From: a bacterium | GTDB taxonomy: Bacteria; Patescibacteriota; Saccharimonadia; Saccharimonadales; UBA4665 | Direction of reading: 5' to 3' | Length of the DNA stretch: 54,312 bases | Assembly (NCBI GenBank): GCA_021783725.1 | Contig: JAJXTN010000008.1 | Coordinates: 1-54,312, forward strand | In this document: positions 19,076-48,232 of the stretch, in pieces | Numbering within the stretch: position 1 is the stretch's first letter | How the letters are laid out: every line of letters starts with the position of its first letter | Position numbers and translations under genes: made by a program | Notes under the pieces: model-generated | What the model was told of the DNA's origin: nothing | The model's database searches: none | What the model saw: the letters and a program-made list of their open reading frames with translations, nothing else

Positions 19076-19321
19076 GTGGTTCAAGAAAGAACCAACGTGG
19101 CACAGCCCTATGCACCACACAATATCAGTGACCAACAGGTCATAACAGTCAAGGAAGCTCGTAAGCTACTTGGGCAAAAAGCAAAAAACCTAACCAAAGA
19201 AGAACTAGAAGCGTTGATACAAGCTACTGAAACAGTAGTGAGAGTTTCTATTCGCACGTATATTAGTTCGAAAAACGTTGAAAATAATGTTAATATAATA
19301 AGTACAGGAACAACACTATGA
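19076..19321 (+). CDS. Small protein coupled to the recombinase
   Basis: An 81-residue protein with no known family. A GTG start at 19076 follows a G-rich stretch (GGTGGGGG) about 20 nt upstream; a later GTG at 19097 is possible. The middle is charged and helical (VKEARKLLGQKAKNLTKEEL, EALIQATETVV). Its stop overlaps the recombinase ATG as ATGA, so the two are co-translated. A recombination directionality factor is a reasonable but unproven guess from position and size. Confidence 0.55.
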   Translation: MVQERTNVAQPYAPHNISDQQVITVKEARKLLGQKAKNLTKEELEALIQATETVVRVSIRTYISSKNVENNVNIISTGTTL

Positions 19322-20853
19322 AAAAAGCAGTTATTTATCTTCGTGTATCAACTACTAAACAAGTCGAAGGGGCAAGCCTTGATACGCAACAGAAGTTGTG
19401 TCAGGACTGGGCAACACGCAATGATGTACTGGTTAAAGGAATCTATCACGATGACGGTGTATCAGCTAAAACCCTAGACCGTCCTGCAATGAAAGAAATG
19501 CTAGCGTATTTAGAAGCAAACAAAGGAAGCATACATTACCTAATTACTTACCAGACGGATCGTCTCACACGCAATGCCACAGACTTCTTCGCACTACGCA
19601 CCCTCCTGCATAAATTAGGAATTGAGTACAAGAACATCAACTCAAGCCTAGAAGATAGCGTGAACGAGGAGCTTATACAGAACATTGAAGCTGTACTCGC
19701 TCAGCATGACAATAAGATGAAATCTGTCCGAGTAAAAGATAATATGAAAGCCCAAGCGAAAAAGGGCTATCGTATGAGCAAGGCACCTCATGGTCTAAAA
19801 AACGTGAGGGATGTACTAGAAAATTCTACGCTTGCACCAGTAGAGGGGGTCGCCGATAAGGTGGCTTCCGTACTTGAAGCACACGCAACAGGTACTCATA
19901 CTATCGCTGGCTTAATTAAGATGTGTGAGAGCATAGGGCTAAAATCCGCTAAGGGCAAACCCATGCAGATACAAGCACTAAGCAAAATGCTTCGTAACCC
20001 TATCTATGCAGGGCTTGAACAAAACCGCCACACAGAGGGTCTGCTTATACCTTCAAAATTCAAAGGCATCATTACCCCTGCGGTTTTCCACCGCAATCAA
20101 GAGCTACTGAGAAGTAACAAGAATACTGCCGCTACATATAAGAAGAATAACCCTGAATTTCCTCTGAGGCGTTTTATGCTGTGTTCGAATTGCAATAAAC
20201 CACTTACAGGCAGTAGTCCTGTTGGTGGCTCAGGTAAACGTTCGCCACGTTACCACTGTTCACACTGCCATATCCCATCTGTGCAATCAGGAGAGCTTCA
20301 CGAACAATTCCTACACCTACTTGCCTCACTAACTCCTGACCCTGATATGGAGAAGTTTCTAAAAGAGATAATTGTACGTGTTTGGCGTGACGAAACACAA
20401 ACCCTAGGCAATAAGCAGAAGAAGCTCCACAAGGCCTTAGAACAGCTTACAGAGCGAAGAAATAAAGCGGTAGAAGCGTTTGTTTCGGGCGATATATCTC
20501 TAGATGAGAAGAAAGACCTCGTTGCGAAAATAAAGAAAGAGTCTGACACTATACAAGAAGACCTAACAGCTATTGGGTCATTGTCAGAACTGAAAACTGA
20601 TGCAATCGATTACGCTATGCGTTTTATGTCGAACGCACCAAAGATTTGGAGTAACGCCTCGATAGAACATCAAATTATCTACCAACGCCTAGTGTTCCCA
20701 GAAGGCCTAGAATACGACCTCACTACAAATAAATTTCGAACGCCTAAATTAAGTGCACTTTACACCTTAGCAAGCATGAAAAAAGACCCATCATTAGCTG
20801 ATGAGTCTCTTATGGTGACCCCAAGGAGAGTCGAACTCCTCTTGCCAGGATGA
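19318..20853 (+). CDS. Large serine recombinase (site-specific integrase)
   Basis: A 511-residue integrase. The resolvase-type catalytic domain opens with VIYLRVST, Ser11 being the nucleophile, and includes HYLITYQTDRLTRN. The recombinase domain follows (about 150-260), then a zinc ribbon CSNCNKPL ... YHCSHC (about 295-325), a coiled-coil stretch and the usual tail FPEGLEYDLTTNKFRTPKL. The last 24 or so codons are antisense to the tRNA-Glu terminator and the tRNA itself, so the final residues (VTPRRVELLLPG) and the stop codon come from tRNA sequence. This implies integration at the tRNA-Glu 3' end. It probably moves the 16-20.8 kb island. Confidence 0.93.
   Translation: MKKAVIYLRVSTTKQVEGASLDTQQKLCQDWATRNDVLVKGIYHDDGVSAKTLDRPAMKEMLAYLEANKGSIHYLITYQTDRLTRNATDFFALRTLLHKLGIEYKNINSSLEDSVNEELIQNIEAVLAQHDNKMKSVRVKDNMKAQAKKGYRMSKAPHGLKNVRDVLENSTLAPVEGVADKVASVLEAHATGTHTIAGLIKMCESIGLKSAKGKPMQIQALSKMLRNPIYAGLEQNRHTEGLLIPSKFKGIITPAVFHRNQELLRSNKNTAATYKKNNPEFPLRRFMLCSNCNKPLTGSSPVGGSGKRSPRYHCSHCHIPSVQSGELHEQFLHLLASLTPDPDMEKFLKEIIVRVWRDETQTLGNKQKKLHKALEQLTERRNKAVEAFVSGDISLDEKKDLVAKIKKESDTIQEDLTAIGSLSELKTDAIDYAMRFMSNAPKIWSNASIEHQIIYQRLVFPEGLEYDLTTNKFRTPKLSALYTLASMKKDPSLADESLMVTPRRVELLLPG
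20779..20808 (-). terminator. tRNA-Glu terminator, inside the recombinase 3' end
   Basis: On the minus strand, four bases after the tRNA CCA, AGACTCATCA-gctaa-TGATGGGTCT (one G-T pair) is followed by six T. It is read on the opposite strand as recombinase codons. Confidence 0.8.
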
Positions 20854-20887
20854 AAACCTGATGTCCTAACCGATAGACGATGGGGCC
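20813..20887 (-). tRNA. tRNA-Glu (anticodon TTC)
   Basis: A 75-nt cloverleaf with encoded CCA. Acceptor GGCCCCA pairs with TGGGGTC, discriminator A. The anticodon arm is CAGG-TTTTCAT-CCTG, giving anticodon TTC, and the T-arm contains GTTCGACTC. It is the apparent attachment site of the serine recombinase element. Confidence 0.95.
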
Positions 20888-31830: not shown

Positions 31831-32617
31831 TATCTTCTTTCAAGGTGAGACCTTATGCATCATAGGTTGTTATTAAATATGAAATAATTATTAATTTTCA
31901 AGGTCTCAACTTGAAAGAAGGACACTAGGCACTACAATCAGGCTATGCCGTCAAGAAATGTGGTTAAACATTACAGTCAGGACACCTTCTATCATGTCTA
32001 TAACCGGGGCGTGGCAAAACAACTAATCTTTATTGACAACTTGGACCGGTTGAAACTAATCAGCATAATATCTCGTCACCTAGACCCAACAAACAAAAGT
32101 ATTAAGTCCGACGGCACATATTATCGTAAATTTAATCAAGACTTAGAGCTGCTATGCTACTGCTTGATGGGCAATCACTTCCACATGCTTTTATATTTGA
32201 AGAGTGATCTAGATGCCTTACATCTGTTCATGCAATCAGCCATTACCGCATATACTATGTATTTCAATAAGCGCCATAAACGTGTGGGCACCCTTTTCCA
32301 AAGCGTTTTCAAAGCTTCATCAATCTTAAACGAAACATACCTAATGCACATTAGTCGTTATATTCACTTAAATCCACCATCTTATAAAACTTATGCTTAT
32401 TCAAGTTTTCAGTACTACATATCCCAAGTCCACCCAGTTTGGATTAATCCTGACCGGATCCTCAATATGTTTCAAGGTGTAAACTATGCACAATTCGTCG
32501 ATGACTACGCCGATTACGCATCTACTCTGCAGAACATCAAACACGAACTAGCCAACTTTTCTCCCAGCACATTCAACAAGGTCTCACCTTGATATCGTAT
32601 TTCAAGGTGAGACCTTG
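31815..32617 (+). mobile_element. RAYT element with flanking REP palindromes
   Basis: A transposase gene bounded by copies of the 15-nt palindrome CAAGGTGAGACCTTG. Left: 31815-31829 and 31841-31855 (last base differs), then an inverted, one-mismatch copy at 31899-31913. Right: an inverted copy at 32577-32591 and a direct copy at 32603-32617. This is the layout of REP/BIME sequences around REP-associated tyrosine transposases. It sits against the 3' end of the broken response regulator. Confidence 0.85.
31945..32592 (+). CDS. REP-associated tyrosine transposase (Y1_Tnp, RAYT)
   Basis: A 215-residue single-strand DNA transposase of the HUH class. It has YHVYNRGVAKQ at the start, the metal-binding HUH pair in LMGNHFHMLLY, the helix NKRHKRVGTLFQ and the family-typical SRYIHLNP. 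RAYTs recognise REP hairpins, and such hairpins flank this gene. The right-hand palindrome supplies the C-terminal codons KVSP and the stop. Intact by sequence. Confidence 0.92.
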   Translation: MPSRNVVKHYSQDTFYHVYNRGVAKQLIFIDNLDRLKLISIISRHLDPTNKSIKSDGTYYRKFNQDLELLCYCLMGNHFHMLLYLKSDLDALHLFMQSAITAYTMYFNKRHKRVGTLFQSVFKASSILNETYLMHISRYIHLNPPSYKTYAYSSFQYYISQVHPVWINPDRILNMFQGVNYAQFVDDYADYASTLQNIKHELANFSPSTFNKVSP

Positions 32618-37270: not shown

Positions 37271-37303
37271 GGGCCAGCCCGGCCTCCCTGCGGGAAGCCG
37301 GGC
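37271..37303 (+). repeat. Hairpin between a duplicated tRNA-Lys 5' heptamer
   Basis: GGGCCAG at 37271-37277 is repeated as the first seven bases of tRNA-Lys (37300-37306). The 22 bases between form a hairpin with the ends: GCCCGGC/GCCGGGC (37277-37283, 37297-37303) and TCCC/GGGA. It looks like a small palindromic insertion with a 7-bp target duplication, and its 3' arm overlaps the first four tRNA bases. Confidence 0.6.
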
Positions 37304-37376
37304 CAGTAGCTCAGCTGGTTAGAGCGTCTGCCTCTTAAGCAGAATGTCGTGGGTTCAAGTCCCACCTGGCCCTCCA
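37300..37376 (+). tRNA. tRNA-Lys (anticodon CTT)
   Basis: A 77-nt cloverleaf with encoded CCA. Acceptor GGGCCAG pairs with CTGGCCC, discriminator T. The anticodon arm TCTGC-CTCTTAA-GCAGA gives CTT. T-arm GTGGG-TTCAAGT-CCCAC. Its 3' end is copied twice downstream. Confidence 0.96.
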
Positions 37377-37414
37377 CGAAAAAAGACCTGCCGTGTGTAG
37401 GTCTTTTTTCGTGG
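37374..37414 (+). terminator. tRNA-Lys terminator starting in the CCA
   Basis: CCACGAAAAAAGACCT (37374-37389) pairs perfectly with AGGTCTTTTTTCGTGG (37399-37414). The stem begins with the encoded CCA of the tRNA. The same CCACGAAA ... TTTCGTGG ends are used after tRNA-Arg. Confidence 0.8.
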
Positions 37415-37437: not shown

Positions 37438-37562
37438 CACGACATAGCAAATTTTCTGCAAAGAAAATATGCGTAATGTCGTGGGGTCGTCGACAAACTC
37501 ACGCGCAGGAGCCCCGGCTCCGAGCATGAGTGCCGTCGTGCGTTGTCCCACCTGGCCCTCCA
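37438..37562 (+). repeat. Second copy of the tRNA-Lys 3' part, T-loop replaced by an insert
   Basis: CACGACAT (37438-37445) is an inverted copy of ATGTCGTG (37476-37483), the tRNA variable-loop sequence. Between them is an AT-rich hairpin ATTTTC-tgcaaa-GAAAAT with flanking GCA/TGC. The tRNA copy then reads AATGTCGTGGG, is broken by a 59-nt insert (37486-37544), and resumes as GTCCCACCTGGCCCTCCA (37545-37562). The insert contains ACTCA...TGAGT and GGAGCC-cc-GGCTCC. The copy ends 186 nt after the tRNA. It cannot form a tRNA. Confidence 0.8.
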
Positions 37563-47898: not shown

Positions 47899-47975
47899 GC
47901 ACCCGTAGCTCAGCGGATTAGAGTACTTGGCTTCGAACCAAGGGGTCGCAGGTTCGAATCCTGCCGGGTGCACCA
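47899..47975 (+). tRNA. tRNA-Arg (anticodon TCG)
   Basis: A 77-nt cloverleaf with encoded CCA. Acceptor GCACCCG pairs with CGGGTGC, discriminator A. The anticodon arm CTTGG-CTTCGAA-CCAAG gives TCG. T-arm GCAGG-TTCGAAT-CCTGC. Its 3' half is copied once downstream. Confidence 0.96.
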
Positions 47976-48014
47976 CGAAACAGCCTCAGCTTTATTGCTG
48001 GGGCTTTTTCGTGG
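47973..48014 (+). terminator. tRNA-Arg terminator starting in the CCA
   Basis: CCACGAAA ... TTTCGTGG outer arms with inner AGCCTCAGC/GCTGGGGCT and a T-run (48005-48009). The same outer arms as after tRNA-Lys, and again the stem starts at the encoded CCA. Confidence 0.8.
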
Positions 48015-48035
48015 TCTGTCGGCAAGATCGGATCG

Positions 48036-48165
48036 GCGACTTGTATTATGCGAATGCATAATACAGTAGTCGCAGGTTCGTCGTAGCGAGGACGCACGCA
48101 AGAGCTCGCTCTGAGCACGCCGTAACGAAGAAGGACTTTAGTCTGCTATCCTGCCAGGTGCACCA
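48036..48165 (+). repeat. Second copy of the tRNA-Arg 3' part, T-loop replaced by an insert
   Basis: GCGACT (48036-48041) is an inverted copy of AGTCGC (48068-48073), and between them is a near-perfect AT-rich hairpin TGTATTATGC-gaat-GCATAATACA plus a 2-nt bulge. The tRNA copy GTCGCAGGTTCG (48069-48080) is broken by a 67-nt insert (48081-48147) and resumes as ATCCTGCCAGGTGCACCA (48148-48165, one base different from the tRNA). The insert has an AGAGC-tc-GCTCT hairpin. The copy ends 190 nt after the tRNA. Confidence 0.8.
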
Positions 48166-48209
48166 TCCTCCGTCGCAGACCCATTTCGGATCAGCTATGG
48201 AGGGTTTTT
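48166..48209 (+). terminator. Terminator-like hairpin after the tRNA-Arg copy
   Basis: CCTCC/GGAGG arms followed by G and five T. It suggests that the copy is transcribed, or that a transcript crosses it. Confidence 0.5.
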
Positions 48210-48232
48210 GCTATTTATAAGATCAAATCTTT

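Follow-up and report, generated by a model that had tools for sequence, protein, structure and literature searches.

Modules behind tRNA genes of Saccharibacteria that repeat the resident tRNA 3' end around a conserved fold: probable integron-like elements

Why should a tRNA gene be followed by a second copy of its own 3' end? The question is raised by the gene for tRNA-Arg(TCG) on a 54,312-nucleotide (nt) stretch of DNA, called the window here, which is contig 17 of a Saccharibacteria genome (G000; 843 kb, 98% complete). Behind this gene, and also behind tRNA-Lys(CTT) on the same contig, lies a short module that ends in a further tRNA 3' end. The original prediction, made from the letters of the window, held that the two loci share an architecture with almost unrelated sequence and that a mechanism copying, or templated by, the resident tRNA had produced it. 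Our comparison indicates that the modules are, with fair probability, non-autonomous integron-like elements that have folded, possibly single-stranded recombination sites, target the T-arm common to all tRNAs and depend on an enzyme acting in trans for their movement.

A family of modules behind many tRNA genes

The recurrence of the tRNA 3' end was common in the genome of the window. For 19 of its 37 tRNAs, at least 13 of the last 16 nt occurred again within 380 nt downstream. The same recurrence was seen for 35 of 1330 mismatched pairs of tRNA and locus (2.6%) and for 0 of 740 shuffled sequences, so the repeat exceeds chance. A covariance model (R1) was built from the 67-nt insert of six copies in this genome, including the Arg copy and excluding the Lys copy. 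R1 matched 12 copies in the genome. Of the 40 relatives, 22 carry the core that it detects (type A), as do 71 of the 295 genomes examined in the order; when 240 genomes were drawn from the phylum, no match fell outside the class. The covariance search by which the original prediction stood to fall therefore returned further copies.

Among 103 examined copies, 79 begin 39 to 104 nt after a tRNA gene on the same strand, with 30 tRNA types represented, and the copies placed otherwise are mostly distal array members or loci with short upstream sequence. At 75 of the 79 family loci, a terminator-like hairpin with a T-run lies no more than 48 nt from where the tRNA ends. The arms of the modules were matched to the tRNA beside which they lie. 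Over the 79 loci, the fit to the resident tRNA exceeded that to permuted tRNAs with z=26.6 for the distal 3'-end copy, z=12.3 for the inverted T-arm copy and z=8.8 for the direct T-stem copy, which bears out the predicted locus specificity of the arms. The inverted acceptor showed no fit beyond that of permuted tRNAs, and the inverted copy is thus a T-arm copy and no full 3' half in most loci. By sequence comparison, a shared layout at 30 tRNA types, a conserved fold and a locus-specific 3' end are therefore demonstrated.

The modules match no known family. In Rfam 15, only the tRNA itself reached the gathering score, permissive E-values brought up nothing further, and the core was not found in viral contigs and phage records. 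A pattern scan of genome contigs gave mostly chance matches, with a clear excess in metagenome-assembled genomes of Candidatus Saccharibacteria. A search of open-access papers, which does not extend to most subscription journals or to any preprints, gave no earlier description.

Other inserts were seen in the same position. A second core class (R2), which is unrelated to type A, occupies the same place with the same plan in 14 of the 40 genomes. A shorter insert type was found at six tRNAs of the window's genome; at L005, L008, L009 and L032 it lies 78 to 96 nt after tRNA-Thr, -Leu and -Met. It consists of GACRCTTCGYTAGNGTCGACA, a variable hairpin and then TATGGGTTC and/or the tRNA 3' end; the second tRNA 3' end is present in this type and the inverted arm is absent. 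In genome G039 (L365), degenerate tRNA-Arg-like sequences adjoin a type C core within 230 nt after tRNA-Gly, and these are possibly decayed tRNA copies from repeated insertion.

Movement and turnover of the modules

The most clear-cut recent move was seen in genome G032, where near-identical elements were found at tRNA-Met and tRNA-Arg(CCT), each carrying the 3' end of its own tRNA, and the direct T-stem arm of the two elements was identical. Since the 3' end is local and the T-stem arm is the same, the 3' end alone is acquired at once; the remaining arms apparently follow later or by selection for pairing. Similarly, tRNA-Pro and tRNA-Arg(TCT) of the window's genome carry near-identical elements with local 3' ends. 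The nearest neighbor of a core was found in the same genome in 29 cases against 6.4 expected, and at the same tRNA in 9 cases against 3.2 expected, which is weak beside the same-genome grouping. These observations bear on the proposed templating by the resident tRNA: the layout and the locus-specific arms were borne out, but templating was not established, and templated copying is not required for the 3' end because target duplication on insertion explains it.

Within one genus, the site at orthologous tRNA-Ser(GCT) genes was empty in G381, held type A in G450 and G333, and held other inserts in G411, G372 and G368. The site at tRNA-Arg(TCG) was likewise empty or occupied by type A or other types across genera. 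Orthologous sites that are empty, occupied or filled with another core type indicate that modules come and go. Comparison of the sequences thus establishes the same element at different tRNAs and empty and occupied states of orthologous sites, together with tandem modules and arrays of module, cargo and module. The original prediction had missed the presence and absence, the tandem arrays and the cargo genes of these elements.

Arrays and cargo genes

Tandem modules with tRNA 3' ends in between were found at tRNA-Lys(TTT) of the window's genome and at tRNA-Ser and tRNA-Arg in other genomes. In distal modules, the acceptor end, terminator, arms, core and 3' end are repeated and matched to the same tRNA, an arrangement that looks like a cassette plus its site. 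Genes were also enclosed. A Fic gene lies between two modules at tRNA-Met of the window's genome, and the cargo at tRNA-Arg(GCG) of G004 is a Phd-PIN pair with a membrane protein. At tRNA-Met of G386, three modules are present with an N6 methylase and other genes in between. The array at tRNA-Asn, which adjoins smpB, has two modules with cargo between them, and this cargo differs between G386 and G009 and includes HEPN_AbiU2.

A NADAR gene is the cargo at tRNA-Lys of G038. In this genome, the NADAR gene (L115, 2339-2929) is flanked by tRNA-Lys on one side and by a 10-nt repeat of that tRNA's 3' end on the other. The stretch has no type A core to itself, which suggests another element type using the same site. 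In addition, the modules at different tRNAs in G386 (L331 and L332) are each directly followed by the same segment of about 45 nt, AATTCACAAAAACCCTATCTGTTAGAGG...; this shared segment may be a promoter or a part of the module.

Conserved fold of the core

The fold was examined in an alignment of 107 copies (A3), which was fitted to the structure of the model, so that its covariation numbers are generous. In A3, 86.8% of the pair cells were standard pairs, and double-change cells numbered 558 against 168 ± 14.5 with shuffled partners, a value reached in 0 of 500 shuffles. The covariation signal was lost when partners were slid by one base. G-C, A-U and U-A pairs are exchanged throughout single helices of the core, and the internal loop GCA/GA and its adjacent bases are nearly invariant.

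The loops of the helices were of restricted types. Of 96 tetraloops, 93 were self-closing Y..R loops, 68 of them YTTR, and none was GNRA or UNCG. We take the YTTR loops of the core to be DNA-type; CUUG is a stable tetraloop in RNA as well, so the loop evidence for DNA is suggestive and no proof. Among the triloops, 41 of 62 were GNA, and GNA and GNNA loops give extraordinarily stable DNA mini-hairpins (PMC4686876). The conserved fold and the DNA-type loops are consistent with recombination of a folded single strand. In well-aligned pairs, G-T outnumbers A-C, which leans toward the tRNA-sense (top) strand as the folded strand.

Proposed mechanism and candidate enzymes

A module comprises, in order, a terminator, an inverted T-arm copy, a hairpin, a T-stem 5' copy, a conserved folded core placed in the T-loop and the tRNA 3' end. 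In the mechanism that we propose, the core would be a recombination or transposition site acting as a folded strand, probably tRNA-sense single-stranded DNA. An enzyme supplied in trans would recognize the core and join it to the T-arm motif GGTTCRANTCC. Because this motif is near-universal, any tRNA gene could be a target, and a complete tRNA would remain upstream because the target's 3' end flanks the element on either side. Genes between modules would come and go in the manner of integron cassettes. More speculatively, the moving enzyme might be the single chromosomal Xer recombinase; conversion, or selection for pairing, would then fit the T-stem and inverted arms to the tRNA in place.

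Several recombinase families were considered as the mover. A RAYT/Y1 transposase was rejected, as Y1_Tnp was found in 11 of the 40 genomes, did not correlate with the modules and was missing from rich carriers such as G003, G009, G026 and G029. This family had been considered because the window contains a RAYT-like Y1 transposase gene (31945-32592), one of three Y1_Tnp matches in its genome; no link of these genes to the tRNA modules was found. IS110 with its bridge RNA (DEDD transposase) was rejected with 2 of 40 genomes, neither carrying the core. A serine recombinase was considered because a large serine recombinase gene of the window (19318-20887) lies antisense to tRNA-Glu(TTC) and overlaps its 3' end, an arrangement typical of integrated elements; this family is missing from several of the richest genomes and was also rejected. 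Extra tyrosine integrases were discarded from the PF00589 counts in all 40 relatives, mostly one each and nearly always the single Xer. Xer is the sole recombinase family among those tested that is common to all carriers. It is therefore a candidate by elimination within the tested set of tyrosine and serine recombinases, IS110 and Y1 transposases.

Several points weigh against moved, integron-like elements with folded sites, beyond the fitting of A3 to the structure and the stability of CUUG in RNA. Arm I (the inverted copy) and arm D2 (the direct T-stem copy) are locus-specific, yet simple target duplication covers the 3' end only. Terminators vary between sites, so the insertion boundaries are approximate. 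Many module copies are degenerate, the ViennaRNA DNA parameters disfavor the fold in several single copies, and the G-T and A-C counts do no more than lean toward the top strand. No mobilizing enzyme was found among the families searched: several of the genomes richest in modules lack serine recombinases, IS110 and Y1 transposases, and genomes without the core have Xer, too.

Alternative explanations

The core could instead be a structured RNA, regulatory or a tRNA-like decoy, that is made with or near the tRNA and whose arms aid folding or 3' processing. The strong covariation with fixed unpaired nucleotides, the fixed orientation relative to the tRNA and the excess of G-T over A-C in well-aligned pairs would suit such an RNA. 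However, 75 of 79 copies are directly behind an intrinsic terminator, and a -10-like hexamer with at most one mismatch was present in the approximately 43 nt before the core at only 9 of 79; this place behind a terminator with little promoter room argues against an RNA role. In addition, GNRA and UNCG loops are missing from the tetraloops and no Rfam match exists. The core is missing at the orthologous tRNAs of congeners and in most genomes of the order, indicating that it is not needed for tRNA function. We consider the RNA explanation unlikely.

Two explanations by other insertion events seem less probable still, each with only a slight chance of being right. The first is that the modules are scars of ordinary tRNA-targeting integrative elements, that is, attachment sites of phages or islands whose integrase genes have disappeared. 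Such elements classically insert at tRNA 3' ends, and repeated 3' ends and cargo islands do occur here. Usual attachment sites, however, are without a conserved folded core of about 80 nt at 30 tRNA types, and most copies enclose no genes. The element-rich genomes hold one Y-recombinase, the Xer, and the core is unmatched in viral contigs. The second is a transposase- or Cas1-like integrase whose staggered cut spans the region between the T-loop and the tRNA 3' end; the repeated end would then be a long target-site duplication and not the outcome of crossover by a recombinase. It would account for the local 3' end taken by the distal copy with a junction in or beside the conserved T-loop, and for the 3' ends that separate tandem modules, but it does not explain why the element contains inverted and T-stem arms that are specific to the locus, and the proximal terminator sits between the two 3'-end copies. 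Least credible of all is polymerase template switching at tRNA-terminator palindromes with no dedicated mobile element, which would give the direct-inverted-direct order as a product of fold-back synthesis with copies that drift and could contribute to arm adaptation, but can neither give rise to one conserved core at tRNAs that are unrelated nor carry this core from one tRNA to another.

Comparison with known mobile systems

The integron-like elements that we favor were compared with integron attC arrays, using the attC features described previously (PMC2727003). In both, the sites are structured, their arms are symmetric and their unpaired bases are conserved, and both form one-way arrays of small cargo (toxin-antitoxin, GNAT, restriction-modification and Fic genes) with an anchor fixed at one end; recognition of the folded strand is suspected for the modules. 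An integron-type array, with cargo genes between sites and a fixed anchor, was observed at tRNA-Met and tRNA-Asn. In contrast to integrons, in which the bottom strand is favored, the favored strand of the modules is apparently the top one, and the modules are anchored at any tRNA gene with arms tailored to it, many of them without cargo. The R-box pair RYYYAAC ... GTTRRRY was found in 0 of 79 modules on either strand. Among the tyrosine recombinases of two carriers, no integron integrase IntI scored above the cut-off (136-146 bits against TIGR02249, cut-off 265), and they passed the cut-off of the XerA-like NF040815. With no attC boxes and no IntI above the cut-off, the system is not an integron, although its proposed mode of action resembles that of one.

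Integrative elements that target tRNA genes by means of tyrosine or serine integrases likewise use the T-arm or 3' end, leave the tRNA complete and have a second 3' end at the distal side. The duplicated tRNA 3' end flanking the insertion is thus a trait in common. Unlike these elements, the modules are about 190 nt long and free of an integrase, occupy many tRNAs per genome and have extra inverted and split T-arm copies with a conserved folded core. No element-borne integrase was found, most modules being too short for a gene and the rich genomes holding a single Xer-like Y-recombinase. Miniature inverted-repeat transposable elements, repetitive extragenic palindromic (REP)/RAYT elements and other non-autonomous hairpin elements are also short, noncoding, rich in hairpins and presumably mobilized in trans, whereas the modules are restricted to tRNA 3' ends and carry target-derived arms, and the RAYT gene is absent from the element-rich genomes. 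Integrative mobile elements exploiting Xer (IMEX), such as the CTX phage with its folded single-stranded attP, integrate at dif. Use of a folded, single-stranded site by the Xer of the host would suit the modules; their sites are tRNA genes, whereas those of IMEX are dif.

It is possible, as a tentative proposal, that the modules represent a new class of cassette system, with folded single-stranded DNA sites, tRNA T-arm copies around the core, any tRNA gene of a Saccharibacterium as the array anchor and Xer or another enzyme as the recombinase. Saccharibacteria are tiny parasites whose genomes are minimal and for which few ways of gaining genes are known. If the proposal is true, the modules would provide a class-specific route by which toxin-antitoxin, Fic, restriction and abortive-infection genes are gained behind almost any tRNA, and would be the second case of cassette capture through folded DNA, integrons being the first. 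The acting enzyme, the strand used and the way in which the arms come to fit each tRNA become testable questions.

The two modules of the window

The resident target gene tRNA-Arg(TCG) lies at 47899..47975 on the forward strand (ARAGORN; Rfam tRNA, 71.8 bits). It is followed on the same strand by an intrinsic terminator (47973..48014; CCACGAAA...TTTCGTGG) whose stem closes on CCA/TGG, and then by arm I, in which the T-arm and variable loop of tRNA-Arg recur inverted and in degenerate form (approximately 48015..48041, reverse strand). An AT-rich hairpin with a 2-nt bulge (48037..48072, forward, as are all following features) links arm I to arm D2 (48069..48080; GTCGCAGGTTCG), which repeats the variable-loop end and the T-stem 5' strand in direct orientation. 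The type A core, a T-stem-closed structure supported by covariation, extends over 48072..48154 and was matched by R1 with 82.7 bits (E=4.5e-22), this copy having been used in the model. It includes the 67-nt insert in the would-be T-loop (48081-48147). The second tRNA-Arg 3' end (48148..48165), with the T-stem 3' strand, the acceptor 3' strand and CCA, agrees with the first at 15 of 16 nt, with one mismatch.

The tRNA-Lys(CTT) locus has the same plan. Behind the gene (37300..37376, ARAGORN) come a terminator that closes on CCA/TGG (37374..37414), a type A core (37481..37551) and a second tRNA-Lys 3' end (37545..37562; 16/16 nt), all on the forward strand. The predicted common layout of terminator, spacer, inverted copy, hairpin, direct copy, 67-nt insert and 3' end was present in full, and the second CCA ends 190 nt beyond the first at tRNA-Arg and 186 nt at tRNA-Lys, as had been stated. 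The small core said to be shared by the two inserts was also real. Their description as almost unrelated was too simple, since a conserved paired core is common to both, and R1, built without the Lys copy, still detected the Lys insert (30.4 bits, E=4.3e-6). With the Arg locus as query, plain BLAST matched the insert in other genera, for example with 80% identity over 59 nt (E=1.8e-8). The Arg copy alone folded no better than its shuffles (z +1.3 with RNA and -0.1 with DNA parameters), and the structural evidence is thus comparative. The Arg copy itself is partly decayed.

Directly after the second tRNA-Arg 3' end, at 48166-48210 of the window, lies a terminator-like palindrome, TCCTCCGTCGC...GCTATGGAGGATTTTT, which is repeated behind many second CCA ends. 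The same palindrome also occurs directly behind some tRNAs, including tRNA-Gln(CTG) (L024) and tRNA-Gly(GCC) (L011), and a related repeat, TCCTACTTCGC...CGTAGGA, is found behind tRNA-Glu(CTC) and the tRNA-Lys copy.
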